NCBI GenBank assembly: GCA_019448385.1
Contig: JAGTXO010000017.1
Span: forward strand, 1 to 64,000
Direction: 5' to 3'
From: Diacronema lutheri
Lineage: Eukaryota > Haptophyta > Pavlovophyceae > Pavlovales > Pavlovaceae
Length of the DNA stretch: 64,000 nucleotides
Shown here: in pieces, positions 13,024 through 33,956 of the stretch
How positions within the stretch are numbered: the first letter of the stretch is position 1
Layout of the letters: every line of letters starts with the position of its first letter
Notes under the pieces: generated by a model
What the model was told of the DNA's origin: nothing
Databases searched by the model: none
What the model saw: the letters and a program-made list of their open reading frames with translations, nothing else
Position numbers and translations under genes: made by a program

Positions 13024-13458
13024 TATATATCCCCATAAGGGCATGGGGACCAAGTATAGATGGTCAAGCCAAATCCGATCAGGGGCACGATCGCGCCCCG
13101 AGTGCAGCGCGGGCCGTTCGGAAGGACGTCCTTGTGAGGGAGCTCTTCGCGTTTGGCGAGCGGGGGAGCACGACGCGCAGCGTTGCTGCGGCGGCGTGCG
13201 GGCGGCGAGCAGCGGTCGGGCTGCTCGCGACGAGGCCGGAGCAGACGGCGCCGTGGCCGCCGGCGCAGGTGACGCGCGCCGACGAGCCGTAGCGAGCGTC
13301 CGTGATCCGCACGGCGGTTGGAGCGGGCCGGCTGGTGCGGCGCGCTCGGCCACGGGTGGCGGCGTGCACGGTCGTGCCGCGCGCGGCACGCGTCGCCAGC
13401 CGCGCGCGACCTGGGCAGAGCCCGCAAAGCGTCGACCGCTGCGCGGCTCGGCCGTGCG
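13024..13458 (-). other. 3' flank of Fanzor gene; candidate guide-RNA (fRNA) region
   Basis: About 435 bp between the Fanzor stop codon and the inverted-repeat boundary has no coding potential. On the minus strand the last part contains a perfect six-base-stem hairpin (CCCCAT / ATGGGG, 13033-13050) followed by GGATATATAC, a 10-mer that also occurs near 12,880 within the adjacent repeat. In characterised Fanzor and TnpB loci the guide RNA is encoded at the 3' end of the nuclease gene and runs to the element edge. By that analogy this is where one would be expected. No RNA feature can be proven from sequence alone. Confidence 0.3.
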
Positions 13459-16400
13459 TCAACGCCGGCCGCGCTTCGGCCCGCGCGCGCTGCCGCCGCC
13501 GGCACTGGCGCTGGCAGCTCCGCGGGCGGGGGTGCGGGCGCGAGAGCCGCCGCCGCCACCGCCGCCGCGCCCGCCGCCGTCGTCGCCACCGCCGTCGCCG
13601 CCGCCGCCTCCCCCGCCGTCATCGTCGTCGTCGCCGCCGCCGCCTCCGTCGCCGTCGCCGTCGCCGTCGCCCTCGCCGCCGCCGCCGTCGCCGCTGCCAT
13701 CGTCGTCGTCGTCGTCGTCGCCCTCGTCGTCGCCCTCGTCGTCGCCGTCGCACTCGTCGTCGCAGTCGTCGCCCTCGCCGTGCACCATGCGCTCCTCACG
13801 CTCCCACACCTCGCCGCGCGCCCACCAGGCGAGCACGAGGGCAAAGCGCTCAGGCGTCGACGTGGTGTCGCGCCCGGCCGCGTGCGCCGCCATGTCGTGC
13901 ACGTCGTAGAAGATGTTGCGCGCGGCGTTGTAGTCGCGGTGCACGGGCTTCTTGCCGCCGTTGCACGCCGGGCAGATGACGAGCGCGTGCACCGTGCGCG
14001 TGCCGCCCTTTGCCACGGGCAGGCGCGGGTTCTGCGCGAGCTCCGCGCCGCAGCGCTGCAGCCTGCCGCCCTTGGCGAGCCGCGGCATCGAGCAGTGCAT
14101 CGACGTGTACGGCTCGGGCACGAAGACGGCCGCGACGCCGCGCCGCCGCAGCTCGCGCAGCAGCCCCACCTGGAAGGCGGGCGGCGCGCCCTTGGGCTGC
14201 GCGCCCTTGTGGTCGCGCAGCCACTTGCCCACGCACACGAGCAGCCGGTCGCGCGTCACGCCGTCGACACAGTGCGCCGCGATGAGCGCCTCGGCGACGC
14301 GCGCCGCGTTGGACCGCCCGCCGCTGTCGCGCCGCCAGCGCTCCTTCCGGCGCGCCGGCGCGTCGTACACGTGCTCGGCGGCGCGCTCGCGCACCCGCGC
14401 GCTCTCGCGGTGGAAGGCGATGTATTTGCCCGCGTCGAGCACCTTGGCGCTGTGCGCCTCGCCAAGCCGCGCCTCGTCCGCCTCCACGCTGAACTCCTCG
14501 CCGCGCCCGTCGGTGCGCACGCGCCGCCGCGCCGCGTTGGTCTTGGCCGTCTCGCGCGCAAAGCCCGCGGCGCGCGCGCGCGCGCGCTGCGTGAACTGCC
14601 GCCAGACGGCCGCCCGCCCGACGTGCGCAGAGTAGGTGGTGATGTTGCCCATGTTCGGGTCGGCCGCGACGACGACCGCCGCCTCGACGTCGATCGCCCG
14701 CCGCAGCTCGGAGCCGAGCGCGACGGCGATGCGCCCGTCCGGCCGGCGCCAGCGGTGCAGGACGCCCGAGCCGCCGGCCGGCGCCTGCGCCTTCGGCACG
14801 AGGACGGTCCCGACGGCGTGCACGGCGACGCCATCTGTCACCACCGACTTGACGGGCTGCCGGCCCGGGAGCGGCACGCGCGGCAGCGGCGCGAGGCCAA
14901 CCCACGAGCGCCGCGCGTGCCACGGCAGATCGGCCGGCGGCCGCTCGCGCCCGGCGTAGTCGAAGACGCGGTTGGAGATGTCGAAGCGCGTCGCAAAGAC
15001 CGCGTACCTGACGCGCACGTCCGACATCGGCGGGGTGTTGCCGTTTGTGCCTGTCCACTTGATCGGCTCGCCATCGTGGTCGCGCAGGTCCAGCGCCTTG
15101 AGCCGCGCGCGCAGCTCCTTGCGCTCGTCATCCGAAAGCGTCACCCAGATGGCGCTCGCGGCGAGGCGCACGTTGCGCGGCACCTGCGCGCAGCGCGCGG
15201 CGCGCGAGCGCGCGGGCGCGTGACCAACCTGGCCGCGGGGCGGCGCGCACGGCGGCGGCGCGCGCGCTTGGGCGCTCGGCGGCGGCAGCGGCAGCCACGC
15301 CTCGCGCGCACATTGTGCGTGCGCAGCGGCGCCACATTGTACCGCGGCGGCCGTCCGGTCAGCTGCGTGTGGATGTGCGCGAGCCGGCAGAGCAGCGCCT
15401 GCCCCTCGGCCACGTGCTGCAGGGTGCGGATCTGCACGAGGAAGTAGCGCGTCGTGTGCCGGTCGTAGTTCCACCTTTTCGTGGGCGTGCACTTGTAGTC
15501 GATCTTGTGGAGGACCATGTCGGGCAGGTGGCGGTCGAGCGCGGCGGGGCAGCCGACGCGCGCGCCCTCCACGTCGCCGCGCAGCAGCCGCTCGCACAGC
15601 TCGCGCACGCGCGCGTTTCGCTGCATCTCGGGCAGCGCGACGAGCGCCTCGTCGCGCTCGACTGCCGCGCGGACGACGTCGCGGAGCAGCCCGTTCACGA
15701 CGCGCGATGGGTGCATCAGGCACGCGGTGGACACCTGCGTCGCCTCCGCCTCGAGGATCTCCGTGAGGCCCACCGCGCAGACGGGCTGGACGCCCTCGGC
15801 CATCTCGCCGACGGCGCGCGCCGTCGCCGCCTTGGTCTGCGCGGCGGCTTGCTCGGCGGGCTTGCCTCGGGGCGCTGCACCGTACGTGCTCTCGTCCTTG
15901 TGCCAGCCGATGGCCGAGAAGATCGCACGGACGGTTCCCTTGTCCATCGTGGTCGACGTGTGCACGCTGGTCGACGGGCCGCCCGACGCCGCGCCGACGG
16001 CCTGCGCGCTCGCCACCGCAGCCTCGTCGCGCACCACCTTGTTGATGACGCGGTACGCCTGTGTCGTGAGCCTGTGCACGGCCGCCGCGATGCGCCGCAG
16101 CTCCTTCCGCGCACCGGGCTGCGCCGTCACCGCCTGCGGCCCCGCGTTGAGCGTCGAGCGCTTGACCACGAAGCCCGGGAGCACGCTGACGCGCGTGCGC
16201 GCCGTCGCGCCGCCGGCGGCGCGCGCGCTCGGCGCAGCGGGCTCGTCCACGCGCGCGCGCTCGACGCCGCGCGCGCGGGGAACGCTCGGCGCGCGCGCGC
16301 CCGCGGCGTCGCGCGCGCTCGCGGCGGCACCCGCCGCGGCGCGCTTGCCCGCGGCGCCCGACTCGCCGTGCGCGCGAAGCGGCGCCGACGCCAATGCCGA

Positions 16401-19400
16401 CGCCGCGCCCGCGCCGCCGCTGCCGCTGCCCGATACGCCCGCGCGCCGCTTCTGCTCGTCGCGCGTCTTGCGGAACTGGGCGACGAGGTCGCTGCTCACG
16501 TTGGCCTCAGGCTCCCACGTGTCGGCGCTCTCGTCGTAGCCCCGCCACCTGATCCGGAACTGGAACGTCACCTTCTTGCCCGCCTTGCGGCGCTCGTCGA
16601 CGACCGCCTCGACCTCGTACGTGCGCGCCTCCTCGTCGACGCTCGCGCCCGCCGCGCTCGCGCCCGTGTCCGGCCACCCAGCGACCGTGCCGCCCAGCCT
16701 CTCGGCGGCCGCGCGCAGCTGCCGCTCGCGCTGGGCGGCCGCGGCGCCTCGCGCGACCAGCGCGGGCAGCATGCCCGCGCCGCCCGCGAGGCCGTGCGCG
16801 CCGACGCTGGCGGTCATCAGCGCGTCGAGGCACGCGAACGTTGCGAGCGCACACGCGCCATCGTCGCCGCCGCGCGGCTGCGAGCGCACGACGGGCGATG
16901 GCCGCGGCTCCCCCTCGGCCGCGAGCAGCGGCCAGATCGCACTGGCCAGCGCGACGGCATGCGCGCCGACCGCGACGGCCACGTCCGCGTCGAGCGGCGC
17001 AAAGTCGTAGCGCACGAGCGCGGCCGGGCGCGAGTCGTCCGTCGGCCGGTCGGCGACGAGCAGCCCGACCGGGCGCGGCGGCTCGCCGGACGGCGCGGCG
17101 ACGGGCACGCAGAGGAGCACGACGAGCAGGCGCGGCGTGCCGCCGAGCAGCGCGCGCGCGGCATCCGCCCCGTCGGCTCCGCCGCGCGCGGCCGCGGCGA
17201 GCAGCTCGGCCGCGCGCGTCGGGCCCAGCGCCGTGCGCGCGTCCTTGCGCGCGCGTGCGCGGGCCGTGTACGCGGCGCAGGCGTCGTCGAGCACCGCCGC
17301 GCTGGGCGCGGTGCCAGTCGTCGCCCACGCGCGCAGCGCGTCGCGCACCCGCGTGACGATCGCCTGGTCGACCGCCGCCTCGCCGGCAGCGTGCGCCGGC
17401 GCGCACGCCGGCGGTGCGGCGGCAGGCGCGAGCGCGGGCGCGCCGTCGGCGCCGTCAACGCCGACGGCGCCGTCGGCGCGCCGCCACGCGAGCTTCGCCT
17501 CGATCTGCTGCCGGACGGCGTGGCAGTGCCGGTCGATGCCGCGCGCGTCGTCGAGCGCGGCCAGCGCGTCCTCAGCGGCGGGACGGCCGCTCGCGTCCGC
17601 GACGGCCTGCAGGCAGAGCAGCGCGGCCGCACGCGCGTTGCACGCGCTCTGCGGCTCGGGCGCGAGCGCGAGCTCGAGCTCGAGCGGCGACGCGCCTCGC
17701 GCCGCGGCGATCGCGTCCATCAGCACGTCCAACCGCTGCACCAGCGCCCTGTGCGCGTCGCGCGGCGCGCCCGTCGACGGCGCGCGCGAGCGCGTCGCCA
17801 GGAGCCCGAGCGCGCGCGCCGGCGCGCCCGCCGGTGTGTGCAGCACGAGCAGCGCCGCGCCCGCCAAGCTCGCGTTGCGCGTGACGAGCGCGAAGATGCG
17901 CGTCGCCTCGTGCGCGCCCACCGACGCCCAGATCGCAGCGCGATCGGCGTCCGTCTGCGCGTCGCACAGGTCGCGCACGTCGTCCGGCGCGAGCAGCGCG
18001 CCGCCGCCGGCGGAGCGCGCGACGATCGCCCGCGCCTCCGCCACGAAGACGGCCTGCGGCAGGTCGGCGTGGCGCGCGTCGACGATGGCGCGCGTCGCGT
18101 GCACGCCGAGCTCCACGCCGCGGTAGAAGGCGCGCGCGTTGGCCGCGCGCGCGTGCGCCGGCCGTCCGTCCGCGTTGCGCCTCGCGCGCGCCTGCTTGCT
18201 CGTGCGCGCGAGGCCGTCGCGTGGCGGTGGCGGCAGCGTGGCGAGGAAGCGCGCGGCGGGCGGCGGCGCGCGCACGCCGCGCTGCCGCCGTGCGATGGCC
18301 GCGAGCCGCCGGCCCGCCGCGCTGCCGCCCGCGCCGACGTGCTGCCAGCGGTTGAGCGCCGCCGGTGGCGGCGGCGGCGGCGGCGCGGCGGCGGGCGGCG
18401 GCGCGACGGCGGGCGGCGGCGCGGCGGCGGGCGGCGGCGCGGCGGTGGGCGGCGGCGCGGCGGCGGGCGGCAGCGGCGGCGGCGCGGCGGCGACGGCAGC
18501 ACCAGTCGGCTTGTCCGCCCACGCACCCGAGACGCTGTCCCAGGCCTTGCCCGGTGGCGCGCGCCCACGCGGCCGCGGGTGGCGGGCTCGAGCGGCGGGG
18601 GGCGGGCGGCCGGCGCGCCAGTCGAAGACAGGTGCAACCGTGGCGGCAGGCGCCGAGTGCAGCGCGTCGGTCACAGAGCGCGTGGTGCGCGCGGCGACCG
18701 TGGCGCGCATGGCGGGCGGGCGGTGAGCAGCGCCCGCCGGCGCGCCGGCGGGCGCGGCAGCCGGCGCGCCGGCGGGCGCGGCCGCCTCGAGCCCGGCGGA
18801 GGCGCCGCGCTTGCGCTTGCGCGTGCCGCCGCGCGTGCGCCTGCGCGCGCGCCCGCCGCGCGCCCGTGCGGCCTGCGCGTCGCCAGCCGCGTCGCCGGCC
18901 GCGTCGCCGCGCCGCACGTAGACGATCGCGAACGCCTCCTCGCCGGTCCCGTCGACGCCGCCGCGCGCGCGGCGTAGGACCGACCGCCACTGCAGCCGCC
19001 GCGCGCGGCCGGGCTCGCACGCAAACCAGCGCCCACCGCGCCTGACGACGGCCACAAAGTCGTCGTCGCGCCGCCCGCGCCGGCGCGTGCGCAGCAGCAC
19101 GCACTGCACGTCGAGCCAGCCCTCGTGCCAGTCGGCCGTGCTGGGGGCGACGCGAATCGACTGCGGGAGCTCGACGCCAAAGCCGGCGAGGCGCACGATG
19201 TGCGCGACGATGACGCTCGAAATGGCGGGGGCGCTCGACGGGTCGTCCGCTGCAGCGAGCACCGCCTCGCCCCAGTGCTCACGCGTGACGCAATCCGCGT
19301 CCTCGACGTGCACGTGCGCCACGCTCGCGCCGAGCTGGTGCAGCAACGCGCAGATGTCGGCGTCGACCGTCCTCTCCTCCTCGGCCGCCTCGGCCGTGCC

Positions 19401-21739
19401 GCGGGCGGCGGCGTCGCCCGCCGGCTGCCCGAGGTACGCGATCGCCCGCTCGACGGCCGCGCGCTCCGCACGCGCTGCGCTGGCGATCGCCGCATTGCCG
19501 ACGGGCGCGCGCAGCGCCGCGATCGCGTCTTGCAACGCCGTCGCGTCGCCCGTCGCCGCCGTCGCCGCCACCGCCGCCGCGCTCGCGGTGCCGTGCGCGA
19601 CGGCGTGCAGCGCGGCGGCGCGCGCGGCGGGGATGCGCCCGTCCAGCGCGAGCACGAGCGGCGGCCCGGCCGGCGTCTGCTGCCGCCGGTGCCGCCGGCT
19701 CGCAGCCGGGTGGTCGGCGCGCGCGCGCTCGAGCCGCGCGCGCCGCTCGACGACGCGCGCCCAGAAGGCCTGCACCCTCGGCTGCGCGAATGCAAGCCAG
19801 CCGACGCCGCGCGTCACGACGTGCACGACGATCCGGTCCTCGTGCCTGAGGTACTGCACGTAGAGCGCTTTGCGCACGCCGAGGACGTGCATGCCGAGCT
19901 GCAGCTGATCGCGGTGCGGCTGCGGCGGCCCGTCCTCGTGCGCCTTGGCGTCCGCCTTGGTGAGCGTCTTCACCTCGACGAGGACCTGCTCGTTGTCTTC
20001 GGGGAGGATGGCGAGCCCGTCCGGCGAGAAGGCGAACGGCGCGCTCTTGTCGTGCGGGTCCGCACGCACCATCGGCAGGTTGCACACGACGGCGATGCCG
20101 TACGCGGCCGCCAGCTTGCGCAGCGCGACGGCCTCGCCGAGGATGCCCGCGGTCGTCGCCTTGGTCCGCACCTCGCGCCGCCGCCGGTGCACGTACTCGT
20201 CGGTGAGCGTCTCGTGCGCGACGCCGGCGTTGTCGTTCACGACGTCGCCAACCTTGCTGCCCGTGACCTCCTCCCATCGCTCGTCGTGCCAGCGCGGGCT
20301 GCGCTGCGCGGGCGCGCCCGCGCCGACGGCGTCGAGCACGCGGCGCAGCGCTGTGCCGTCGGGCGCAGCAGGCACGCGCGCGCGGTCCTGGGCCTCGCGA
20401 GCGTCGAGGACGCAGCCCGTAGTGGAATCTTGGGGTAGGTCGAGCTTGCTCGCCTCGCCGTAGCGGCTCTCCAGCTGGCGCGGTGCGTCGGCAGGGCCGC
20501 CGTCCGTGCGCGCACCCGACGCGCCCGCCAGTGCACGGGGCGCAGCGTCCGAGGCGCCCGCCGCGCCCGCGCCGCCGCCAATCGCGCCAGCGCACGCGCG
20601 CGCCGCGACCTGCGGACGGCCAGCCGCAGGGACCTCGTCCGCTCGGCCGGCCGCTGCGTCGGCCGTCCGCTTGGCCACCTCGCGCACGTCTCCGAGCGCG
20701 AGCGTGGCTGGCGCCGTCGAGCTCCCGTGGCGTTTGTTCCAAAACTCGAGCAGCCCGCCAAGGAAGGGCGTGCCCGTCGGGCGGTCCTCGGGCACCTCCG
20801 CCAGGATCGCGTCGACGCGCAGCGCGGCCGCCACATCGCAAAACGCGCGCGCGGCGCGCGCCATCCGCTCGGCGCGCGCGCCGCCGTCGTCCGCCGCGCG
20901 GCGGATGGCGTGGCTCACGTGCGCGACGCGGAGCGAGACGACGGCGTGCGCCGGCGCGTCGGCGCCCGTGCCGAGCGTGTGCCGCCGGATGGCCAGCTGC
21001 CCATCGCCCATGCGCGGCGGGAGCGACGCGCACGCCGCGACGGTCGTCGTGCCGGCCGCGCTGTCGCACAGCGAGCTCGCCTCGCCGCCGCCCGCAAACT
21101 CAAAGGTCGCGAAGCCCTCGCGGCCGAAAAGCGCGACGAAGTGGTCGAGCACCGCCTTGTTGATCGCGCGCGCCGCCGGCCGCGTCGATGCGCCGCGGGC
21201 AGCGCCACCCGCCGCGCCGCGCGCATCGCTGCACGTCGCAGGGCAGGTGCAGCCGGACGCGCGCACGCCGTCCGACCGCGTCCGCGGCAGCTCGAGCTCG
21301 CGCACCTTGGGGCAGAACCAGAGCGGGTTGGACGCCTCGAGGCACAGCACGACGAGCCGCCCGTCCGTGCCGGCCAGCGCGCGCGCGTCGCGCAGCAGCT
21401 CGACGGCGAGCTCGGACGTCGCCGCGTGCACCGCCGGCTCGCCCGTCGCGCGGTCGGGCGGGAAGAGGCCGCCGCCGACGAGCGGGCTGGGGCAGCGGCC
21501 GAGCATCACGAGCAGCGGCGGCGGCGGCGTCTGCGGCGCCTGCTGCCCGACCGCAGCCGCCGTCAGCCCGGCCAGGTCGGAGCTCGTGCGGAGGGCCTTG
21601 AGCGCGACGCGCGAGCCGGTGCCCGCCTGCTCGGAAAACGTGGCGAGCATGGCGCACGTGCTCGCCCTCGCGCCGCACTGCCAGCTGACGCGCGCGAGGA
21701 GGCCTTCCAGCGTGTCGTTTTCCGCGCGGCCGCGTGACC
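13459..21739 (-). CDS. Giant multidomain protein: YqaJ exonuclease, protease-like domains, chromodomain, Fanzor (TnpB-like) nuclease
   Basis: Two exons are supported: 21677-15312 and 15183-13459. They join at PLRTHN|VPRNVRLAASAIW (GTGCGC donor, GCGCAG acceptor, 128-bp intron), about 2,696 codons. Order: an unassigned block; YqaJ/lambda-exonuclease-type nuclease (QRSPRWHDERWEEVTGS, GILGEAVALRK, FSPDGLAIL, VLVEVKTL; 19.8-20.3 kb); a USP-C-terminus-like piece (GGRWFACEPG...AFAIVYVRR; 18.9-19.1 kb); a Pro-rich linker; two Ulp1-like halves lacking the His (Q/C motifs near 17.6 and 16.85 kb); a chromodomain (FRIRWRGYDESADTWEPEAN; 16.5-16.6 kb); then Fanzor. Fanzor has RuvC-I Asp in VVVAADPNMGN (14659-14661), RuvC-II Glu in FVPEPYTSMHCS (14113-14115), a four-Cys zinc finger (HC, QRC, ICPAC) and RuvC-III Asp in VHRDYNAARNI (13933-13935). 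An acidic Asp/Gly tail ends it. Upstream, the frame is continued by the region to 27.0 kb through either a 61-nt intron (21678-21738) or a 1-nt indel. Confidence 0.75.
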
Positions 21740-24001
21740 GCGTCGAGCGCCGCCGGGCCGAGCTGGAGGCTGCCGGGCGTGACGCACAGCACCGCCTCGT
21801 GGTAGGCGCGCAGCAGCTCCCTCGGCAGCTGCTCGGCGGGCGTCGCCGCCTGCCCGCCCACCCACCGTGCACCGTGGCCGCCGTCGCCCGCGCCCGCGAG
21901 CCGCACCGCCGGCCCGCCCGTGATCGCCGAGGTCGGTGGCGTGCCGAGCGCGTCGACGAGCGCGCGCACGGGCGCGACACGCCTGCGCGCAGCGTCCGCG
22001 CCGACGGCGAGCGCGGCGATCTGAGCGCCCTCCCATGCGCGCTCCCTCGCGTCGTCCCGCGCGGCCGCCGGCGCGGCGCCCGGCCGCGCGCCGTGCGGCA
22101 CCGCGCACGCCGCCGCGACGACCTCCGCGCGCGCGCCGGCGGCGTCGGGCGCGTGCAGCTGCGCGAGCGCGCCAAAGAGCGCGGCGGCCGAGCGGTAGCG
22201 GCCGTGCGCCGCGACGAGCGCGTAGAGCACGCGCAGCGCGGCCACGCCCGCCTGGTCGGGCGCGTCGTCAGCGATGCGCTCGACCTCCCACGTGCGCGTG
22301 GGCGGCGGGCTGCCGTCGGCCGGGTCCGGACGCAGCGCCCACGCGCGCTCGACGATCGCGTTGAACACGCCGTGCGCGGCGCCCTCGTCAAACTCGGCGG
22401 CGCCCGCCGCGTGCGCGCACCACCCGTGCACGCGCGACGTGGGCGCGTCCACGGCGCGCTGCACGACGAGCACCGCCGGCCGGTCGACGCAGCCGAGGCT
22501 CACCGCCGCGTGCTTGCCCTCGAGCAGCGCCGCCGCCGCAGCCTCGACCAAGGCGTCACCAGGCGCGTCGCCGACGACGACGGCACAGCCGTCGCCGTAC
22601 TCGGCCTGCATCGCGGCGACGCACGACGCGACAAAGTCGCCGCCCGCGGCCGCCGCGTGTCGCGCCGCCAGCATCCGGCGCGCGATGGCAAGCCAGACGT
22701 ACTCGGCCGGCGCGCGCGCGGCGCGCGCGCGAGGCGCGCCGGCCGCGCCGCGTGCGCCCGCGCGTGCGCCTCCAGCGGCCGCAACGGCCGAGGCGGCTGG
22801 AGCGGCGGTGAGCGTGCGCCGCGCGCGCTTCGCCGGCCGCGTGATGGGCGATGCACCCGCCGTCGCACCGCCCGCAGCAGCCGGTGCGGCCGCCACAGCG
22901 CCCGCCGCGACGCCACTCGTCACGACGCCCGTGGCGGGCGGCGCGGCGTCGGACGCGGCCGCGTCGACGGGCGTCGCGCAACTACCGCCAGCGGTCGCGG
23001 ACGCGCCCGGCGACGCGTCGGCGAGGAGGTGGCGCAGCACGCCGCGCGCGAGCGCGACTCGCACGGCGAGCGTCAGCGCGCGCAGGCGGTCGGAAGGCGA
23101 GGCGTCGCGCTCGGCGTCGGCGGACGTGGCGGCAGCAGGCGGGGCGGCGGGCGGCGCGGCGGCGGACTGGGCGGCCGCCGGCGCAACCTCGTCGGCCTTG
23201 GCCAGCCAGACGAGCCCGGCGACTGCGAGCACGACGCTGTACGCGCCGACATCGTCACCCGCAACGCGCGCCAGCCGGGCGTGGGCGTCGGCCTCGGACA
23301 CGGCGACGCGGAAGAGCACGTCGTCGCGGGCAGCTTGCTCGGCAAACTGACGCAGCTGCTTGGCCATCGTCACGCCGGCGACGCACGCCTCGCCCGCCTC
23401 TGCCTCGACCTGCTCGTCCTGGCCGATGGCGGACGCGCCGGCCTCGGCGCCAGCGTCGAGTGTCCGGCGGCGCTCGAGGGCAAAGCCACGCACACAGACG
23501 CTCTGGAGGCCGCCGAGCGCGCCCGCCTTCTCGTGCAGCGCGCACGACAGCTCGACCACCGAGTCCACGCGCCTCGCGGCGGCGCCCCCCCGCTCGCCGC
23601 GCGTGGCCGCGCGCACGACGAACACCGTGAATTGCGCGCGCTTCGCCGCGCGCGCCGACGCGCACGCGTGCTTCAGGAGCCGGCAAAGCGCGGGCCTTTG
23701 CGCCGCTGCGCCCCGCGTGCACAGCAGCAGTTGGCCGCGCTCGTCGCCCAGCTCCTGCTCGACGGCGGCCTCGAGCGCGTCGTCCGTCAAATCGCCGTGC
23801 TCCGTCGAGGCGAGCGCGCGCGCAGCCGCGAGCGCCAGCTCGCCTGCGCCCGCGCGCCGCCGGCGGCGCGCATCGGCGGGCGCGTGCGGCGCCGACGCGT
23901 GTGACGACGCCGCCGCGTCCGCGCGCGCACACGCGGCGCGCAACGCCTCGCGCGCCGAGGCGGCCGCGCGCGCCCTGGGCGCGAGCTTCAAGAACGTGCG
24001 C

Positions 24002-24049
<48 letters not shown>

Positions 24050-27017
24050 TCGCCCTCGTCGCCGGCACGCGGCGGCGGTGGCGGCGGTGGCGGCGCGGCC
24101 ACGGCGGCGGCAGCAGCGGCAGCGGCGGTGGTGGTGGCGGCGGCGGCGCCCAGCGCGGGCGGCGGAGGTGGCGGCGGCGGCGGAACGGCGGCAGCGGCGG
24201 CGGCGTCTGCGGCGGCCTTGGCGCCGCGCGTCTGCCGCGGCGCTTCGGCAGCGCGATCGCGGCTGCCCCCGCCGCGCACCGCGCCCGCCCCGGCGCAGGC
24301 GCCGCTCGGCGCACGCCCGCTGACCGCGCCAGTCAACGCGACGCGGAGGTGCTCGCCAACAGCGTACATGTCCGCCACGCTGAACGTGCGCGGCGCGGAT
24401 GCACCGCCCGCCGCAGCGAGCGCGGCGTCGTTGAGCGCGCCCACCACGGCGAGGCCGCACGTCGCGCCACGCTGCGCCGCGTTGTCGAGCAGCCGCGCGC
24501 GGCGCACGGGCAAGACGTCGAGGCCCGCCGCGTGCAGCGTGGCGGTTATCGACCTGGCACGCTTGAGCGCCTGCCTGCTCGGCGACGCGAGCGTGTCGAC
24601 AAGCACCGCGTCGTAGCGATGCTCGCCCGCGCGCGCGACGCGCACGAGGCGCAACGCGGTGAAATGGCCGGAGGCGGGCGGCGTGCCATCGTCACTGCCC
24701 GCACCGCCGCGCCCGCCCGGCGGGCTCCACATGCCGATGACCGCCTGCGTCGTCGCCTCGCTGTGCAGGCGGTGCAGCAGCGCGGCGCGCTCGGCGCCGT
24801 CCTGGAACGCCGCGGGCTGAGCGGCAAGCGGTACGTGGCAGACGCGCCCTTCGCCGGCCTGCCCGTGCACGCGCAGCACGACCTCGCAGCAAGCGTCCAC
24901 AGTGGAGGCGAGCATGTCGCCGCCCGCAATGCAGTCCACCTCTGCCTGCGGGATGCCGGCGCGCGCGGCGGCATCGGCCAGCCGGAGCGCAGCCGCGTCG
25001 CCCGCCCACGCGAGCAGCGCCGGGGCGGCGGACTGGACGTCGCGCTGCGCCACGGCGGGCTCGGCCGCGGCGGGCTGGGCAGCGGCTGGCTCGGCAGCGG
25101 CGGGCTGGGCGGGGGCTGGCGCGGCGGCGGTGGGCTCGGCGGCCGACGATTGCGTGGCAGGCTGCGGCGCGGCCAAGGCGGCGGTCGGGCGGGCGGCGGA
25201 GGCGAAGGCGGCCCATGCGGCGGCCGAGCACACGGCGACGAGCCAAAAGGCGGTGGCTGCAGACGGGCGAGCGGCCGGAGCAATGGCGGCCCGGACGGCA
25301 GAGGCGGCGACGACACTCGCGAAGATGCCGACGGCGCACCGGACAGTGGCGACGGCGACGGCGGCACCGGCACACGGGCGGCGGTGGGGGCTGTCGGGCT
25401 CGGCGGCAGGCTCGGCGGCATGCTCGGCCGAGGGCCGATCGGTGCGCGACGGCGGGCTGCGACTCGCGCGGCGGAGCGGCTGCGGTGCGTGCTGGCCGCC
25501 CGTCGCGCACCTGCGCTTGCGCTCGCGGCGCGCGTCGCCGCCACGCAATCGGCGGCCGACAGCCCGCTCTGACCTGTCGATTGATCTCCGCAGCCGGTCG
25601 CGCGCGCGCTTTGCCGCCCGCCGTGCGCGCCGCGGCGGTGCGCGCGGGCACTGGTCGGGCGAGCTGCGCGCGGCAGGCTCGCAGCAGCCGCCGTCGCGTG
25701 CGTGCGCGCAGCCTCGGTCGCACGGCGCGCAAACGAGGTCGTCGGCGCCATCGACGCCGTCGAGGCCGTCGCCGCGCGCTGCGGCTGCGAGCGCGCGTGC
25801 CACGCCGTCGTCGCCGGCCGCCGGCGCCGCTGCGGCGGCCGCGGCGTCGGCTGCACGGCGCTCGGGCTGCGGCTCGAGCGGCGGGACGGCGCCGGCCGCC
25901 GCGGGCGGCGCCGTGTCGAGCGGAGCAGCCGCGGCGCGCGCGCGCGCGCGCGCGCACCCTTTGCGCCTACCGCGAGACGCCACCCGCGCGGGCGCCACGC
26001 GCGCCGCGGCTCGGCGGCCGCGCGACCGGCGGTGCCGGGCGTGGCGGCGAGCGCAGCGCTCGAACTTGCGTCTGGCTCGGTGGCGGCGAGCCGGCGCAGT
26101 TGCCGCGCAATGCAGGGCTGCACGTCGAGGTGCGCCTCGTCGAGTCGCGAGAGGAGCTCGCGCGCGCGAGTGCCGAGCGCGGCGCCGTCGCACTCGGCAC
26201 GCGCGCCCGCCGGAGCCACCGAGCCTTCGGGGTCGCGCGGCGCGAGCAGCTCGCGCGCAGTCGCGAGCAGCTCCGCCTGCTCGGCGGTGGGGATGCAGGC
26301 GCGGCGCAGCGCGAGCTCTGTGTGCGCGGGCAGGTGGGCGCCCACGGCCTCGGCGTGCATGAGTAGCGCGCGCGCCTCCGCAGGTGCGTCCGCCTCGCCC
26401 ATCTCGGACGCGGCGAGCACGCCCGCCGCCTCAGCGGCGAGCGCGAGCCGCGGCGACGCGAGGTCGCGCAGCGACCGCAGCAGGTGCGGAGGCAGCGCGT
26501 GGCCACGCGCCTTGACGCGCTCGAGCAGGGCGCGCGCGCGCGCTGCATCGTCCGCAGAGCCCAGCGCGCACTGCTCGATCAGGCGGCCGGCCGCGCGCTT
26601 GTCCTCGCGAAAAAGCTGCTCGCGGTGGAGCGCGCGGCGGGTCTCGCGCTTGGCGAGCGCGTCGGCACGCGCCCTGCAGCCCTCGTCGGCGGCGGCGGCG
26701 AGCTCGGCAACGCCGCCAGGCTCGGTGGCGGCGGCAAGCGTGGCGGCGACGGCGCCTACCTCAGCGGCAGCAATGCGGTCGTCAGCGCGCTTGGCGGCAG
26801 CGCATTTGACGGCGGGCTGGTCGGCTGGCTTGGCGTCAGGCACGGTGGGAGGCTGGGCCGTGGACTGGGCGGCGGGCTCGGCGGTGGGCTTGGCAGCGGC
26901 TGGCTTGGCGGCGGGCTCGGCGGCGGGCTGGGCGGCGGGCTGGGCGGCGGCGGGCTCGGTGGCGGGCACGTCCGCCTCGGCCAACAAGAGCGGCTCGAAG
27001 CGGTTGCTCGCGCGCAT
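21740..27017 (-). CDS. N-terminal part of the giant protein, or separate gene: helical repeats and Ulp1-like protease
   Basis: This region starts at ATG 27017 (MRASNRFEPLLLAEADVP) and is coding-like in one frame to about 26.0 kb, then in a second frame to 21739. The switch lies between roughly 26.01 and 25.84 kb and is probably an intron, but I could not fix its ends. The first part has an Ala/Pro/Lys/Gln linker and three similar helical units of about 50 residues (LLERVKARGHALPPHLLRSL, LLMHAEAVGAHLPAHTELAL, ELLSRLDEAHLDVQPCIARQ). The second part has a Ulp1/adenain-type protease pattern in the order His (SGHFTALRL, 24664-24666), Asp (VLVDTL), Gln and Cys (AQRGATCGLAVV, Cys 24457-24459). Such proteases cleave SUMO or viral polyproteins. 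Poly-Ala and Pro runs (24.0-24.2 kb) and a long Ala-rich unassigned stretch follow. That it forms one protein with the Fanzor region is inferred from strand, order and phase. Confidence 0.5.
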
Positions 27018-27105
27018 GCTGGCGCGCGGATGGCTCGGCGGCAGAGCAGCGGGCCGAACGCCAGCGCCCGCGCCGAGGCCTGGCCGCGCTGGCTGCCAGG
27101 GCTGC

Positions 27106-27230
27106 TCGCGCTGCTCGCGCTGCTCGCGCTGCACGCGCTGCACGCGCTGCTCGCGCTGCTCGCGCTGCTCGCGCTGCTCGCGCTGCTCGCGCTGCTCGCG
27201 CTGCTCGCGCTGCTCGCGCTGCTCGTGCTG
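27106..27230. repeat. CTGCTCGCG nonamer array
   Basis: About 13 tandem copies of a 9-bp unit, with CTGCACGCG variants. On the minus strand one frame reads as repeated Arg-Glu-Gln. The array lies just upstream of the ATG at 27017 and could be coding if an earlier start is used. Confidence 0.85.
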
Positions 27231-27288
27231 CGGGCACCACGTGCGCTTGCGCCAGTTGTGCTGCGCATCCCCGCCCTCCGCTGCCGGC

Positions 27289-28895
27289 TCAAAATTTGCG
27301 CATGCCCAGATTTGGCCGCGCCCAACAATTGGCGTGCGCTGGTCCTGCGCGCGGCCGGCGGGCAAGAGGTCGGGCGGGCGGGAGGCGTAGGGGATGCGTG
27401 AGGGTGCTGCACGCTATACGCGCAAACTTTACCTGGCGCGAACGCAAGCGCCGGGCGCCACGCTGTGGACAGCGGACGGCGTGCGCGTGCGAGGCACTCA
27501 CCGCCATTGGCAATGCGCGCGTCGCGGAGACAACTTGGCGGGCCTCGCACGCAGCTGGGCCGATCGCCGCCGCAGAGGTGTCTGCAGCCGTCTCCGCGAT
27601 GCCGATCGTCGCATCTGTTGGCACCGCTGCCATCTGCCGCACCCGCGACCAGGCTGCCGACAGGGTCGGCGCGTCGGGCGCCGAGCTCGGCCACGCAGGC
27701 GATGCGGCCGACGGCGGTGACGCTGAGCCCAGCGCCGGGTCCAACGGTTCCGCGTCGAGCCGGCTGTAGAAGAGCATGCTCGCACCACTTGCCCACGCCA
27801 GCGCGTCGGACTGAGACAAGTTGTGCATCTGCGCGGGCAACGCGCGTGCGTGCGGCAGGCGCGCGGCGCGAGCTTTCAGGCCACGCGCGCGTGCCGCGCG
27901 GGAGGACGGGGCGGCTGCGGCTGCGATCAACCGCCGGTCGCGGCGCCAAGCGGCCGTGCGCGCCGCCGCACGTTGTCGTCGTCGCACAGAAACCAAGCCC
28001 CGTTGCGGAGCACGATGGCGACAAGGTGCCCGCTCGTCGACTCCTCGCCCAAGTGCACGACGGCGGCGACGAGGAGGTAGTCGCGCCCGCCGAGTAGCAG
28101 CCGCGGCGCGCACACGAACGCGTGCTTGTTCTTGCACTGCGAGCCATTGCCGCGCGTCGTGCGCGGCACCTCGACGGCAATGCTGGCTGGCATGAGCACG
28201 TCCGAGCGGCACGCGTCCGGGCTGCCACCCTGCGGCGGCCCAGCGACGCCCCCCAGAGCGTGTGCGAGCGTGCGCGCCGCATCGCCGCCAATGCTGACGA
28301 GGATGGCGATGCCCTCACCGCGCTCGCTCGAGGCCACAGCGATCGGCTCGAGCACTACGCGTCTGTCGTCTTCGAAGGCAGCAGCGAGCCCGGGCACTCG
28401 GCCGAGTAGCATCTGGAAGAACTCAGCAGCGTCCTGCTGCGTCCCTCGCGTGCCACGGCCCAAGATGACGTCGACGACGGACACAAGACACAGCTGTGCC
28501 GGCGCCTCGGTGTCCTCGAGCAGCGTGCCAAAGTCCCGAAAAAGCGCCTTCTCGACTCTTCCCGCACGGCGCGAAGCGGAGCGGGGCATCGGACGGAGCA
28601 CGTTCAAGGCGACGAGCGATTGCGCGAGGGCGTTCACGTAGCACGCGTTGCCCTCGTTTTTCACGCCTGCGCCGCGCCGCGCAGCGCCGGGTGTGCGGGG
28701 TGCGCACGCAAGGTTTACGGCGGGTCGGAGAGAGGCCGACTGGGAACGCGCCGAACCCGGCGAGCCGTGCAGGCGCTCACCACGCGGCACGTCGGGCACT
28801 CTCACCGGCCACATCGGGCCGATGAACGCGCCCCCCACAGGCTGCCGGCCGACGACTCGGAAGTTGCTCCAGGCGCTGCGCCGTGCACGCGTCAT
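27289..28895 (-). CDS. Ubiquitin-specific protease (USP, peptidase C19)
   Basis: Model complement(join(27289-27828, 27972-28895)), 487 residues. The 143-bp intron has a GTGCGG donor and GCGCAG acceptor, and joins FLCDDDN to MHNLSQSDALAWASGASM. Catalytic boxes are in the right order: the Cys box GVKNEGNACYVNALAQSL (Cys 28641-28643), the QQDA box GTQQDAAEFFQMLL, the His box TSGHLVAIVLRNGAWFLCDDD (His 28026-28028, Asp just after), and the C-terminal ASGASMLFYSRL strand typical of USPs. These enzymes remove ubiquitin from proteins. The start at 28895 (MTRARRSAW) is a choice; the frame is open to 29150. It is compact for a USP and lacks an obvious zinc-finger insert. It lies between a broken Pif1 helicase and the giant Fanzor region on the same strand, so it may be cargo of the same element. 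Confidence 0.82.
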
Positions 28896-29150
28896 GCGCG
28901 CGCTGTTGCGGGCTACGCAGCAGAAACGACGGGGGAATAGGCGAGCGAGGGTTGGGCGCAGATCAGCGTGGTGGCGCGGCAAGACGAGCGCGCGCCGGGC
29001 GCCTGGCGCGGAGGCGCCCCGCGCGAGGACGCGAGCCGCTTCTCGCACCGGACGGGCGCCCACGCGCAAACCGGCTTTAGAGGGCCAGATGGATGGTGGC
29101 CGATGACGAATCAGCGCGGCACCCGCCTTTGAAAAAGGGCGTCGCGGCAC

Positions 29151-29885
29151 TGCCCGAAAGCGGTACGGACGAGCCGGGCGCCATGCATGGAACGATGCGA
29201 CGGCGGCGTGAGCGCGGGACGATCTTGCCCAGGCAATTGTGCGCGTTCAGCGGGCGGCGCGCGCGTTGCGCGTGACGGGGCGCCGAGCGGCACACCGGCG
29301 GGGACCCGCTCGCCGCTGCCGTGGCATCCTCCGCTGCCGGCGTGCTGGCACGCACGCGCATTGCCGGCGCGAGGGGACGGCGAGTGCGCCTCGGCCGAAC
29401 AGGCGCGAACGTTACGCCCGAGCGCGTGGCCGAGCACCGGATGGAAGCATGCTTCGTCATGCGGCGGCGACCCGCGCCGATTGCACGCAGCGCCGGCCTA
29501 GGCGCGCATCCGCCCGACGCGGATTTGGACGACGCGTCGACCGGCACGCCGAGCGTCTGCGTCTGCCTCGCGGCCGGTCGCGCCGGCCCCTCTTCGGCTC
29601 GCGGCCGCACGTGCGCCGCGCGCCGCTTCGGCGCGCGGCGCGGCGCGCCTGGAACGCGCGGAACATACGCGCGGTGCGCGGGCACGCCCGCAACGCGCCA
29701 TTTTAGCGCGAGCAGTTCGGCAAGCTTGCAGCTCGCGAGCAGCCGGGCATGTGCCGCGGACACACAGTTCGCTGTGTGCGCCGGCCGCGACGACACGGCG
29801 TAGCGGCGCGAGGCTGGCGGCCGGGGCCACGGGCGTAATCGTGGCGCGACGCCATGGCATGAGTAATAAATCCATGAGTAATAAA
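29151..29885. other. Non-coding gap with a short direct repeat
   Basis: I see no convincing gene. ATGAGTAATAAATC is present twice in direct orientation (29859-29872 and 29874-29887), an AT-rich island in otherwise GC-rich DNA. The rest is GC-rich sequence with only shadow ORFs. Confidence 0.4.
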
Positions 29886-32170
29886 TCACGGGCCCAAGCT
29901 CACGCGCTGTACGGCCTCTCCCGCATGGCGTGCCAGGACCGCATTTTCGCTCGGCCACGCAGCGGACCACGGCGCGTTGTGCGCGCCCGGCGCGAGTGGT
30001 GCGAGTGGCGGGCCAAGCCGCGTCGCCCACGGAGCCCGCCCCCGGCTCGGCGGCACCGCTACCGCTTGCTCGCCGGGCCGCGCACCGCCGTCGCCGCCGC
30101 TGCGCGCTTGCCCTGCTTGCCGGCAGGCGGCGGCGGCGGCGGCGGCTGAGGTTGCGGCAGCGGCGCGAGCGCGACGCCGGACGGCGGCAGCGCCGACGGC
30201 ACGCGCGCGGCGGCGACCCACGCGGCGTCGGGCAGCGCGCCGGCTTGAGGCCCCTGCTTGCCGGCCGCATTGGCGCCGCCCTGCGCGCCCTAGAAGGGCG
30301 CGCAGGTACGCGGGCCAGTCGCGCGGCGCGCGGTGTTGGCGAGCACCCGCCGGCTGCGTGTCGGCCGCGAGCGGCGCGACGGGCGTCGCGCCGGCGGGTG
30401 CTGGGCAGCACCGCGCGCCGGCGTCGCGCCCGCCGCCAGCGCGCCGCCCGCCGCCGGCGCCGCGCGCGCCGTCCGAGCCGCGCCCGCCGCGCCCGCCGCC
30501 ACCGCGCGCCGCCGCCGCGCATTCGCGCGCGGCGGCGACGGCGGCCGCGGCGAATGCCGCCGCCGCCGCCGCCGCCTCGCCACCGCTGACCGCGCGGAGC
30601 ACCTCTTTGAAGACGACGGTGCGCGTCACATGGTCCGGGCCAAGCGCAAAGCGGATGCGCGACGCGTGCCCGACGCGCGAAGCGGCCACGTAGAGCTGGC
30701 CGTGCGTGAAGCACGGCTCGGCGAGCCACACGCCCGCGCACCCGAGCGCTTGACCCTGCGCCTTGTTACGCCGGCCGCACCGGGAACTGGCGGTGCAGCC
30801 ATGCAAACGCGAACGTGCCCTCGTCGGGCGAGTGGTGGTCGATGCGCGCGATGAGCACGGTGCTGTCGCGCCCGGCGGCCGCGCCGGGGCGCGCGCACTC
30901 GAGCAGCCGGCCGCCGGCGCGCACGCCGCGCACGACCAGCCGCGTGCCGCTGCACAGCCCCTCGCCGAGCGAGAGGAGGCGAGTGGCTACGAGCTCCGCC
31001 GGGTAGGCCGAGACGCCTCGGGCAGCTGCACGAGATCGAGCGGGAATGCGCCGGGCATGGCCCCCGCAGGCGGCACCGCCGCGGGAAAGGCGCCGTCGCC
31101 GAGGCTGCGCGGCAGCTTCGCCCACTCGCCCGCGCCGAGCGCGTCGCCCGTGTCGCGCGCCGCGTTCGAGGCGCGAGAGTTCTCGACCAAGGCGTACGGC
31201 CGATCGTGCTGCCACGATGCCGAGTACTCGAGGCAGGAGCGCACGATCTGCGCGCGCGAGCCGCGCCGCACCACCGGCAAGCACTGGCAAAAGTCGCCGG
31301 CGAGCAGCAACGTCTTGCCGCCGAAGCGCTCGTCGACGCCCGTCACGTCGCGCAAACACCGATCGAGCGAGTCGAGGCGGCCCCGCTTCTGCATCGGCGC
31401 CTCGTCCCCCACGATCATTCGCCGCGGCGGCCACGGAGCGCCCGCGCTCGGAGCGCGGCACGCCATTGAACGGCTTGCCCGTCCGAGTCGGCGCCGACGG
31501 GCACCTTGAAGGTCGAGTGGAAGGTGCGGCCGTCGGGCAGCAGCGTGGCGGCGACGCCCGAGGACGCGCACACGACGACCGCGTGCCCATCCGCGCGCAC
31601 GGCGGCGATGATGGCGCGCTCGACGAACGTCTTGCCCGTGCCGCCCGGCGCGTCGCAAAAGTGCAGCCGGTCGCCCACGCCGCGCAGCGCCGAGTCGACG
31701 ACCGCGCCGTGGAGCGCGCGCTGCTGGCCGGTCTCGGCCATCGCCGCGCGCGCCGCCGCCGCGCTCGCAGCCTGCTCGGCGCGATCGTAGCCCTGCGCGC
31801 GCGCGAGCTCGCGCCCGCCCGGCCCGGCCGGCGCGCGCGCCGTGCGCAGACCGGCCACCGCCGCGAGCGCCGCCGCGCGCTCGCGCTCGTCGGGCACGTA
31901 CAGCCCCGTGGAGTCGAACGTGTCGGCCCAGGCGGCCACGCTGTACGAGGCGAAGGCGTCCGAGCCGGGCTGCGGCCGCTGCTCGGCGCGCTTCGGGAGC
32001 ATGACCCCGCACACGTTCCACTTGGTGCCAAACATCGAGCCCGTGAGCCCCGTGTAGACGCAGTCGAGCTGCGTGGCGATGGCGCAGACGTCCTCGTGCC
32101 GGATCTCGTCGACCGGTTCGCCATCCGTGGCGTCCAGGATGGCGACTGCGCCCGGGCCGTGACGCCGCGG
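29886..32170 (-). pseudogene. Frameshifted, internally deleted Pif1/Helitron-type helicase
   Basis: Helicase motifs lie in order on the minus strand but in changing frames. An N-terminal piece (AIATQLDCVYTGLTGSMFGT) leads to Walker A HFCDAPGGTGKTFVERAI (31.63-31.65 kb) and VVVCASSGVAATLL. A frame change then gives Walker B MIVGDEAPMQKRG and LLAGDFCQCLPVV. Another change leads to LGEGLCSGTRLVV and FAFAWLHRQFPVRPA, followed by a stop. A fourth frame has RRNKAQGQ, FTHGQLYVAASRV and VVFKEVLRAV, the C-terminal helicase signature of Helitron-type Pif1 proteins. About six residues expected between QFPVRPA and NKAQGQ are missing, and a larger central stretch is absent. Unlike the neighbouring genes, no GT-AG introns repair these breaks, so I call it decayed. 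No HUH Rep domain was seen. The coding-like sequence ends near 30,590; the remainder to 29,886 is low complexity. Confidence 0.7.
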
Positions 32171-32325
32171 CGTCGTTCGGCTGCGTCACGGAGGAGCGCC
32201 ATCCGTGCGCCACGGAGGAGCGGCAGGACCACGACGCGGCGTGACGCTGGACGACGCCATGCTGTCGAGGCGCCATGCTGTCGAGCTATGGGGACCAATT
32301 TTAAGGAAGCCTGAGTTACGCGTCA

Positions 32326-33903
32326 CTAGCTCAGGCTGGTGAGCGTGATCGTCGCGCCGAGGGCAAACGAGACGGCCGAGACGGTCAGGTTGACGGACAC
32401 CTTCGACATGTACAGCAGCGCGCGCGAGGCGAGCGCCGCGCCGGTCACGCAGCATGGCAGCACGATCGCGAGGCATGCGAGCATCTGCGGCCGCACGACC
32501 TGCGGCTTGTCGACAAAGTTGGCGAGGAGCGCGGCGCACTGGAAGCACATGAGCGCCACGCCCGTGCCCGTCGCAAGCGGCAGGTCGTCCACGCCCCAGA
32601 CGAGCATGATCACGCTCACGTACATGACGCCGCCTCCACTGCCCACGATGCCGCACACCGCGCCGAGCACGCCGAGCAGCAGCGCCGTCAAGCCCATCCG
32701 CCGCCGGCGCGTGCGCACGCGCGCGGCGCGGTCGGCCGCGCGCGCGCCGGGCGCGCCGTGCACGATCTGCGAGCGCAGGAGCATGCGGCCGGGCGAGGGG
32801 GCGGGCGGGCTGCGCGGCGGCGAGAGCGTCTCGCGCGCCCACGAGAAGGCGCGCGCGGTCAGCGGCGGCGAGCCGAGCGGCGTCGACCAGCCGCCGCCTC
32901 CTCCTCCGCCGCCCGCCGCCTCCTCCGCCGCTCGCGCCGCGTCGCTCGCTGAGCGCATCGCTGGCTGTGGCGCGGCGCACGGCGGCGGCTCGGCGCGCAC
33001 GGGGCGGCCGTCCGCGTGCACGCGCGCGGGCGTGCGCGGCTGCGCCGGTCCAGCCGAGTGCACGCGCCGGCCGGGCAGGCGGAGGGGCGGCAGCGGCTGC
33101 AGCCAGCCGCGCGGACGGTTGGCGCGCGACGGCGACGCGCCACCGCGCGGGGGCTGCTCCTCCAGCCAGCGCGGGCACGGCGGCGCGTCGAGCGCGTGCG
33201 CGCTCGGAGTGCCGTACGCCGCTGCCTTTGGCGCGAGCGCGCGCGCGTGCGTCGGCAGCGAGTGCGAGCGGGTTTGAAAGTCGGGCAGCAGCTCGACACC
33301 GTCGCTCCCCGACCAGCCGCTCGAGCCGGCGTCGTCGGGCGGCGGGTCGGCGCACCCGTCCGCGCGCGGCGCGCCGAGCGCCGCCGCGCCGATCGCGCGC
33401 ACCCGCGCGTGCTCCTTGGCCGCGCGCACGGCGAAGAGCAGGCCAAAGAAGAGCGGCACGTACCCGACAGAACCGCGCAGCAGGTGCGTGTGCGACTCGA
33501 GGAACGAGTCGGAGAGGCGGGACGAGACGGCGCCGGCGATCGCGGCGACGCCGCCAAAGTGCAGCACAAACGGCTTGTCCACCTTGCCATGCTGCAGGTA
33601 GAGCAGCACGAGGACGAGCGACGACGCCGTGTCCATCATCACCGACAGGAAGAGCGCGTCGTAGAGCGCAAAGCCGAGCCAGTTGAAGAGGAGCGGCATC
33701 ACGAGGTTCCAGCACGTGAAGCCCGCCGTCGCCACGGCGAAGCCGAGGAAGAAGCTCGCCGGCGCCATGACCGACGCGAACACGCCAAAGCCCGCGCCCG
33801 CGCCCACGGCGTACATGGCCGTCGCCGTGCCGCTGCAAAGTGCCACCGCAAATCGCGGCGGAGGCGGGAAACGGGCCAGCGGGCGAAAATGAGTAAACAC
33901 CAT
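32326..33903 (-). CDS. TauE/SafE-family membrane transporter
   Basis: A single-exon gene of 525 residues. Two hydrophobic halves, each with about four membrane segments, carry the family's glycine-rich pattern. Half one runs from AVGAGAGFGVFASVMAPASF to YVPLFFGLLFAV; half two includes LTALLLGVLGAVCGIVGSGG, followed by MYVSVIMLVWGV and ATGTGVALMCFQCAALL. Members of this family export sulfite, sulfoacetate or related organic anions, or act as permeases; the substrate cannot be predicted here. The halves are separated by an unusually long, about 230-residue, Pro/Ala/Ser/Gly-rich loop, presumably cytosolic and disordered. The stop is next to a short inverted repeat (CCTGAG...CTCAGG, 32310-32334). 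The broken Pif1 copy lies immediately downstream, so the mobile-element block ends close to 32.3 kb. Confidence 0.82.
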   Translation of the reverse strand: MVFTHFRPLARFPPPPRFAVALCSGTATAMYAVGAGAGFGVFASVMAPASFFLGFAVATAGFTCWNLVMPLLFNWLGFALYDALFLSVMMDTASSLVLVLLYLQHGKVDKPFVLHFGGVAAIAGAVSSRLSDSFLESHTHLLRGSVGYVPLFFGLLFAVRAAKEHARVRAIGAAALGAPRADGCADPPPDDAGSSGWSGSDGVELLPDFQTRSHSLPTHARALAPKAAAYGTPSAHALDAPPCPRWLEEQPPRGGASPSRANRPRGWLQPLPPLRLPGRRVHSAGPAQPRTPARVHADGRPVRAEPPPCAAPQPAMRSASDAARAAEEAAGGGGGGGGWSTPLGSPPLTARAFSWARETLSPPRSPPAPSPGRMLLRSQIVHGAPGARAADRAARVRTRRRRMGLTALLLGVLGAVCGIVGSGGGVMYVSVIMLVWGVDDLPLATGTGVALMCFQCAALLANFVDKPQVVRPQMLACLAIVLPCCVTGAALASRALLYMSKVSVNLTVSAVSFALGATITLTSLS

Positions 33904-33956
33904 TTCAAACCGGCGTGCCGCCGGCCGGGCGCGCGGCCCTGCGTCGTCGGCGCGTG

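Follow-up and report, generated by a model that had tools for sequence, protein, structure and literature searches.

The question raised by this locus is whether a Fanzor nuclease can form one giant protein together with chromatin-reading and DNA-processing domains, and to what kind of genetic unit such a protein would belong. The locus lies in a stretch of 64,000 nucleotides of the haptophyte Diacronema lutheri (GenBank assembly GCA_019448385.1, contig JAGTXO010000017.1), here called the window, which corresponds to C46:1-64000 in a genome of 43,492,796 bases and 103 contigs. An earlier note on the window had described a Fanzor at the C-terminus of a single open frame that also carries a chromodomain, protease-like domains and a YqaJ-type nuclease. 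The present analysis revealed that Fanzor, chromodomain and YqaJ-type nuclease are parts of a high-copy transposon and not of a lone host gene. This transposon is probably a large, Rep-less, Helitron-derived element, recently active, which encodes a polyprotein of ~5,000 amino acids (aa) ending in a Fanzor1-type nuclease and spreads by the mechanism proposed below. The earlier reading had overlooked the high-copy transposon, its 5' truncation, the frame breaks and, further upstream, a Helitron-type helicase and a ubiquitin C-terminal hydrolase (UCH) domain.

The transposon family

The features of the window on which the argument leans are:

13054-32286, minus strand: 5'-truncated transposon copy; the sharp 3' end is common to other copies, which continue upstream at the 5' side
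13459-15183, minus strand: Fanzor C-terminal exon with the RuvC residues Asp/Glu/Asp, the four-Cys TNB finger, a low-complexity acidic tail and the stop (PF07282 over cut-off, motif)
15184-15311, minus strand: predicted 128-nt phase-0 GT-AG intron inside Fanzor (from the sequence)
15312-16190, minus strand: Fanzor N-half, in the chromodomain frame (continuity across the intron, same frame in the copy on contig C71; bounds by eye, no profile match)
16467-16619, minus strand: HP1/CDY-type chromodomain (PF00385, E 3.4e-12)
19884-20291, minus strand: YqaJ/lambda-exonuclease-like nuclease, SPDG...EVK...QLQLGM (PF09588, TIGR03033)
21700-21740, minus strand: frame break, one base more than in four other copies
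24307-24951, minus strand: candidate cysteine-protease-like (Ulp1-like) region, unproven (H/D/Q/C order by eye)

A genome search with the last 300 bases of the element gave 100% identity at all 40 scored places (the best 40 of 280 candidates), and a 1,022-base stretch of the 5' side was likewise found at 100% and over its full length at 40 of 40 places (the best 40 of 247 candidates; 40 extra rows were short secondary matches). These counts are lower bounds for a family of more than 100 copies, which apparently multiplied and was active recently. The genome-wide TNB search matched 148 of 150 scored candidates (306 found), a number that includes other Fanzor families, and a frame of 1,015 aa, as in the window, is common to many of these matches. 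The element has a sharp 3' boundary at window position 13,054; its full-length 5' end, TATATA[C/G]GGCGCGG, was derived from comparison of C14, C27 and C4. Measured between its two ends, the full-length short form has 21,564 bases (G000:C14:231733-253296); a long form is ~7.8 kb longer (~29 kb in total), as shown by the spacing of end matches in C28, by C9, which directly matches the additional C69 sequence, and by C69 itself, and C71 looks by eye like C69 across this stretch. Of six contig starts fetched, five (C1, C6, C12, C26 and C29) are no more than 13 bases away from the 3' end of the element; they are probably assembly breaks at the repeat.

Domains of the predicted polyprotein

The RuvC Asp, Glu and Asp and the four-Cys finger that had been described for the window are present, with the catalytic codons at 14661-14659, 14115-14113 and 13935-13933. 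Their order, D-X184-TS-XX-four Cys-RD, fits the published Fanzor motif D-X(125,275)-[TS][TS]-XX-C4-X(5,50)-RD (Bao & Jurka 2013, PMC3627910); the first two Cys are unusually far apart (C-X13-C). Cas12f1-like_TNB (PF07282) scored 27.3 bits against a cut-off of 26.3, the NCBIfam model guided_TnpB gave only a weak match (E 0.085; 12.1 bits, cut-off 100) and a comparison of the window Fanzor ORF (open reading frame) with the Fanzor sequences in PDB gave no match at E<=10. The predicted intron junction reads ...PLRTHN/VPRNVRL..., and the intron stretch is retained without indels in 12 of 12 aligned copies. The domain family suggests RNA-guided cutting. As regards a possible guide-RNA scaffold, the element's 3'-terminal 200 nt fold within the range expected by chance (z -1.29; 23 of 200 shuffles fold as well), and the 3' end had no match in Rfam at the gathering score.

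The chromodomain was confirmed by a strong profile match. At E<=0.001 it also matches 50 distinct sequences in PDB, with names such as HP1, chromobox and CDY; among them are CDYL (4.2e-11) and HP1 (1.5e-9). Its Y, W and Y (Y...W..Y) align with CDYL; we take these positions to be the aromatic cage, which points to methyl-lysine binding, and tethering to chromatin would be in keeping with the domain family.

The YqaJ-type nuclease was also upheld, PF09588 being below its cut-off of 22 in the whole window ORF (E 0.009, 16.7 bits) and above it when the domain was cut out (22.5 bits for the window, 25.4 for C71). In the genome-wide search C71 was the sole match among 150 scored candidates (28.2 bits). 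The lambda-exonuclease model TIGR03033 gave 4.6e-6 but only 26.8 bits against a cut-off of 68, and the D...ExK core motif could be seen by eye. Kinship with lambda exonuclease points to end resection, and the YqaJ part may thus process DNA ends.

Less remains of the proteases. The Ulp1-like protease of the earlier note found no match in the C48 profile search, and the stretch had none in Pfam, NCBIfam or PDB sequences for the window segment and none in Pfam for the C71 segment; Ulp1 identity is not supported by profiles and the H/D/Q/C order is by eye. The stretch between YqaJ and the chromodomain (16635-18359) has no Pfam match. A clear protease domain, UCH, does exist, outside the interval of the earlier note, at 28.4-28.7 kb.

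Reading frames and fusion

That the domains share one open frame proved wrong for the window copy; in C71 it holds as far as the Fanzor N-half. In the window the Fanzor C-half lies in ORF 13459-16506, chromodomain and YqaJ in 15141-22499 and the upstream part in 21100-26430. The frame is broken twice, by an extra base near 21.72 kb (compared with C71, L017, L019 and L021; L016 gave no readable stretch there) and by the predicted intron. One frame is excluded for this copy by the three ORFs and two breaks, and it probably makes no complete protein. In C71, by contrast, YqaJ, chromodomain and Fanzor N-half lie within one frame of 4,518 aa, in which 4,259 residues were read in the order candidate protease, YqaJ, chromodomain, Fanzor N-half. 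The frame runs into the GT-AG stretch past PLRTHN and the following exon resumes with VPRNVRL; ~4,457 residues from the upstream stop to the intron and 574 after it (counted in the window) amount to ~5,000. Frames of at least 4,000 aa hold 102 of 146 chromodomain matches and frames below 3,000 aa hold 31 (median 4,501). The 146 are the best 150 of 260 candidates minus the first four rows, which had other scores; they were assigned to the family by near-identical score, not read singly, and as near-identical copies the 102 long frames are not independent observations. The fusion is real at the level of the open frame, C71 being the sole copy read through.

When the diverged copy on C49 (L067, C49:209500-216300), whose 972-aa frame runs into the Fanzor C-half, was compared with C71, the pooled ratio of nonsynonymous to synonymous substitution rates (dN/dS) was 0.51 over five segments (0.61, 0.35, 0.69, 0.29 and 0.46, taken from the candidate protease, the region ahead of the chromodomain and the Fanzor C-half), with synonymous change above expectation (P 5.5e-5). 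Constraint extends ahead of the chromodomain (dN/dS 0.61, P 0.046). Frame controls, placed in three stretches of which none is in Fanzor, gave 0.46 for the true frame of the candidate protease, where the two alternative frames had 0.99 and 1.39, and separated less in two stretches before the chromodomain (0.67 against 0.94 and 1.08; 0.63 against 0.63 and 1.46). Between the window and C71 the candidate protease showed 0.40 and other segments 0.36-0.77 on few changes. Among 12 near-identical copies a slight third-position excess was found in Fanzor C (17/22/29), and the coding stretch had 13 indels of which 8 were multiples of three, compared with 0 of 4 in the 3' non-coding stretch. Our reading is that the frame is likely to have been under selection in the lineage and that single copies drift.

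Ends, insertion pattern and helicase

Further features of the window copy bear on how the element moves:

13043-13053, no strand: target-site duplication copy 1, ATGGGGACCAA on the plus strand
32288-32298, no strand: target-site duplication copy 2, one extra base off the truncated 5' end
28401-28667, minus strand: UCH domain, N part (PF00443, E 7.3e-15)
29886-32121, minus strand: Helitron-type PIF1 helicase in several frames, lacking the N-terminus kept in C69 (PF05970 2.4e-23, Helraiser match)
32126-32286, minus strand: segment inverted relative to the helicase in the C69 copy, with the 5' truncation point at its end

The window copy breaks off at 32,286, before the full 5' end is reached, and is followed by one extra base and then by an 11-bp repeat of the 3'-flank sequence. 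No abutting target-site duplication was found at any of 20 copies that have both termini and were read into the flank on either side (nine, C43 and C47 by eye, and nine more; interiors were not read), and the 9-base word shared at C9a and some shared words of 5-6 bases do not abut the ends. Outside this count are C38, for which no clear 5' end was obtained, C58, where the contig runs out first, and C37, which was read without its 3' flank. A C precedes the 5' end at 18 of 21 junctions (C38 and C58 excluded; P 1.1e-5 against a window C frequency of 0.384), the exceptions C29, C14 and C9b having G, and the element's 3' end also finishes in C. The pattern fits the one-ended transposition of Helitron2, with 20 of 20 copies that have both termini lacking and the one truncated copy examined showing a duplication. 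Copies were picked by a 5'-side match, so truncated ones are under-sampled. Truncation had been suspected at 10 of 13 probes of the expected 5' end, a suspicion that was given up when nine of them were read and all had the full 5' end in a variant ~148 bp shorter (the tenth is C38).

Two helicase pieces of C69 and one of the window match, in order, residues 1055-1112, 1136-1225 and 1426-1465 of Helraiser (PDB 7lcc), which is the only PDB match at E<=0.01 for the three pieces (rhodopsin appears at 0.67). The helicase gene of C69 keeps a longer N-terminus (L023:1285-2500), which has no match in Pfam; of 8,000 candidates scored against it, a single ENA entry matched, at 100%. In the copy on C49 the N-part of UCH is joined in frame to the candidate protease. 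The antisense ORFs of the window copy had no Pfam match, and ten ORFs scanned in the full-length 5'-terminal 2.2 kb gave only a sub-threshold match to RES (E 0.027). As the test for a Rep gave none, the element should not be classed as a Helitron; its behaviour appears to be that of a non-autonomous Helitron2.

Proposed mechanism and its alternatives

In the mechanism proposed, the polyprotein would comprise, in order, a candidate cysteine protease, a YqaJ/lambda exonuclease, an HP1-type chromodomain and the C-terminal Fanzor1-type nuclease. The element would be copied by a one-ended, rolling-circle process starting from its 3' end, the Rep either acting in trans or having been lost since, and where copying stops early the broken end would be joined into a staggered target, giving a duplication. 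Fanzor, guided by an RNA spanning the element's 3' end into the flank, would cut alleles without the element, YqaJ would resect the cut ends and repair would copy the element in, while the chromodomain would keep the complex on methyl-lysine-marked chromatin.

Several observations weigh against this explanation. No Rep (PF14214, HUH) was found in the element ORFs scanned, and the only genome-wide Rep match, at C63, is frameshifted, its HUH motif reading HAR by eye across the frameshift. Here the Rep peptide ahead of the helicase region resembles the element's by eye, and masked tblastn gave no match; this degenerate Helitron Rep (L060, C63:31000-40900) stands beside a WAREHGC-type repeat gene that is 84-87% identical to window 57.0-58.6 kb. 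Between the window and C69 little constraint was seen on the helicase (dN/dS 0.77 and 0.87) and none on UCH (1.06), and both may be decaying. The Helitron1 ends (5'-TC, CTRR-3') are absent, the ends being TATATA...TATAC; the terminal hairpins are no better than shuffles (z -0.57 and 0.66), the best terminal inverted match of 9 of 10 bases is at chance level by rough estimate, and a single truncated copy has been read at both ends. As to the fusion, C49 keeps its 972-aa frame yet lacks the chromodomain and the Fanzor N-half, and since it lacks YqaJ and chromodomain it offers no selection test of these. Between the window and C71, YqaJ gave 0.53 on 17 changes and the chromodomain with Fanzor N 0.77 on 9, too few for a test, and the Fanzor C-half 1.80 on nine changes. 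Substitutions among the 12 near-identical copies lack a third-position excess over YqaJ, chromodomain and Fanzor N (65/60/52), and one of the 12 carries a 25-nt deletion in the linker between chromodomain and Fanzor.

The many copies without an intact Rep, together with the fusion of nuclease and exonuclease, could mean that the giant protein mobilises the element itself by Fanzor cutting, YqaJ resection and host repair. This we regard as doubtful: the 21 5' junctions have in common only the preceding C and show no homology by which repair could be guided, duplication-free ends and a Helitron helicase indicate a rolling-circle origin, and a Rep may be diverged or unassembled. A Rep-free, self-copying transposon that combines chromatin reader, exonuclease and RNA-guided nuclease, and spreads by guided cutting at chromatin-marked sites followed by repair copying, would be the boldest form of this idea and is given only a slight chance.

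The frames of YqaJ, chromodomain and Fanzor might instead belong to adjacent, independent genes and merge by chance in GC-rich DNA, as the earlier note had cautioned. The three overlapping frames of the window copy speak for this, as do the missing third-position excess and the frame-breaking linker deletion among near-identical copies, and C71 does contain an antisense open frame of 2,902 aa that corresponds to no known gene, so that a frame of less than about 3,000 says little by its length alone. On the other hand, 300 second-order Markov simulations of the 14.4-kb C71 stretch (forward strand, three frames) gave a longest stop-free frame of 1,049 codons in the median and 2,311 at most, which the window's 2,452-aa frame just exceeds and the 4,518 aa of C71 exceed by far. 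The 102 of 146 matches in frames of at least 4,000 aa, though near-identical and taken from the best 150 of 260 candidates, the lack of any Met between chromodomain and Fanzor N-half in the window, the constraint ahead of the chromodomain and the excess of indels in multiples of three in coding sequence likewise disagree with separate genes, which we judge unlikely.

The combination of a truncated 5' end, an intact 3' end, an 11-bp duplication and one extra base also brought to mind target-primed reverse transcription, as of a retrotransposon like the long interspersed nuclear elements. This reading was dropped once 20 of 20 two-ended copies showed no duplication, and it is very improbable: the 3' junctions read are without poly-A, the intron stretch is kept in 12 aligned copies, a Helitron-type helicase is present and no reverse-transcriptase match occurred in the ORFs scanned, which do not comprise every frame and were not complemented by a genome-wide search for that family. 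An integrated giant virus fragment is hardly credible, even if Fanzors are known in large DNA viruses (PMC3627910) and Pfam terms YqaJ a viral recombinase domain, as the unit is discrete and repeated with sharp ends and a Helitron-type helicase, the ORFs scanned gave no match to capsid or packaging families and there was no relative in viral contigs, a search that reaches close relatives and in which records near the source genome may be missing.

Relation to known systems

The probable Helitron-derived transposon with a Fanzor polyprotein can be compared with described elements; its architecture is unusual, its setting known. To call Fanzors mostly compact, or linked to ordinary transposases, is too simple, since Helitron2 elements with Fanzor1 were published in 2013 (PMC3627910). 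According to that paper, CRe-1,2,3 of Chlamydomonas reinhardtii lack a duplication at full length and show duplications of ~7-19 bp in most 5'-truncated copies. They share with the present element the Fanzor1-type nuclease, the character of a non-autonomous algal element, the intact 3' end and the duplication pattern, whereas the element here is 21.6 to ~29 kb long, has terminal hairpins no better than shuffles, encodes a polyprotein with chromodomain and YqaJ as well as helicase and UCH, and inserts after C and not at TTTT (PMC3627910). The PIF1-family helicase is shared with Helraiser (PDB 7lcc), the element differing from it and from Helitrons by the Rep that was not found and by termini unlike Helitron1. 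In SpuFz1 and other characterised Fanzors, too, the C-terminal half contains the RuvC region and the zinc finger (PMC10432273), but in C71-type frames Fanzor is fused to more than 4,000 upstream residues.

In the literature searched, which leaves most subscription papers and bioRxiv preprints outside, no chromodomain-Fanzor fusion and no paper with both Fanzor and YqaJ was found. The available text of PMC3627910 does not mention fused or fusion, protease, Ulp1 or exonuclease, and that of PMC10432273 neither fusion nor fused; in the accessible portions, PMC10711439 uses 'fused' for tagged constructs only, PMC6338049 names chromodomains in LTR (long terminal repeat) retrotransposons and Fanzor in DNA transposons separately, and PMC11423790 contains none of the terms looked up.

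Four further Fanzor loci were fetched (C86, C59, C22 and C49), of which C49 and C59 are related to the chromodomain-Fanzor transposon family, C59 in the Fanzor C-half alone, and C86 and C22 gave no match to it. A second, distant Fanzor family at L059 (C69:649900-655800), with a threefold protein repeat upstream by eye, likewise ends a long open frame, here of 1,681 aa, with Fanzor and shows 30% identity over 115 positions, but TNB alone was matched in that frame, with no chromodomain or YqaJ. Among 8,000 candidates sharing most words, the chromodomain-Fanzor piece had no relatives outside the source genome and Fanzor one ENA entry at 99%; the matching ENA entries probably derive from the same or a near organism.

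The window around the insertion

The window has a GC content of 66-82% in 2-kb steps and starts with telomere-like (CCTCAC)n. Beside these repeats, positions 768-1283 are 84% identical to the 5' region of a full-length transposon (L045:3951-4457). TauE-like and leucine-rich-repeat ORFs (32326-33981 and 35084-36391) adjoin the insertion.

Significance

The role of Fanzor in eukaryotic transposons is unsettled, and the mobility of a Helitron-like element for which no intact Rep was found is a puzzle in its own right. This family offers a test bed, with many near-identical and apparently recent copies in a small genome, known ends, a preference for insertion after C and both intact and truncated copies. 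The natural fusion hints at specific roles, tethering to chromatin and resection of ends, and the joining of chromodomain and Fanzor may serve as a natural model for chromatin-directed RNA-guided nucleases.

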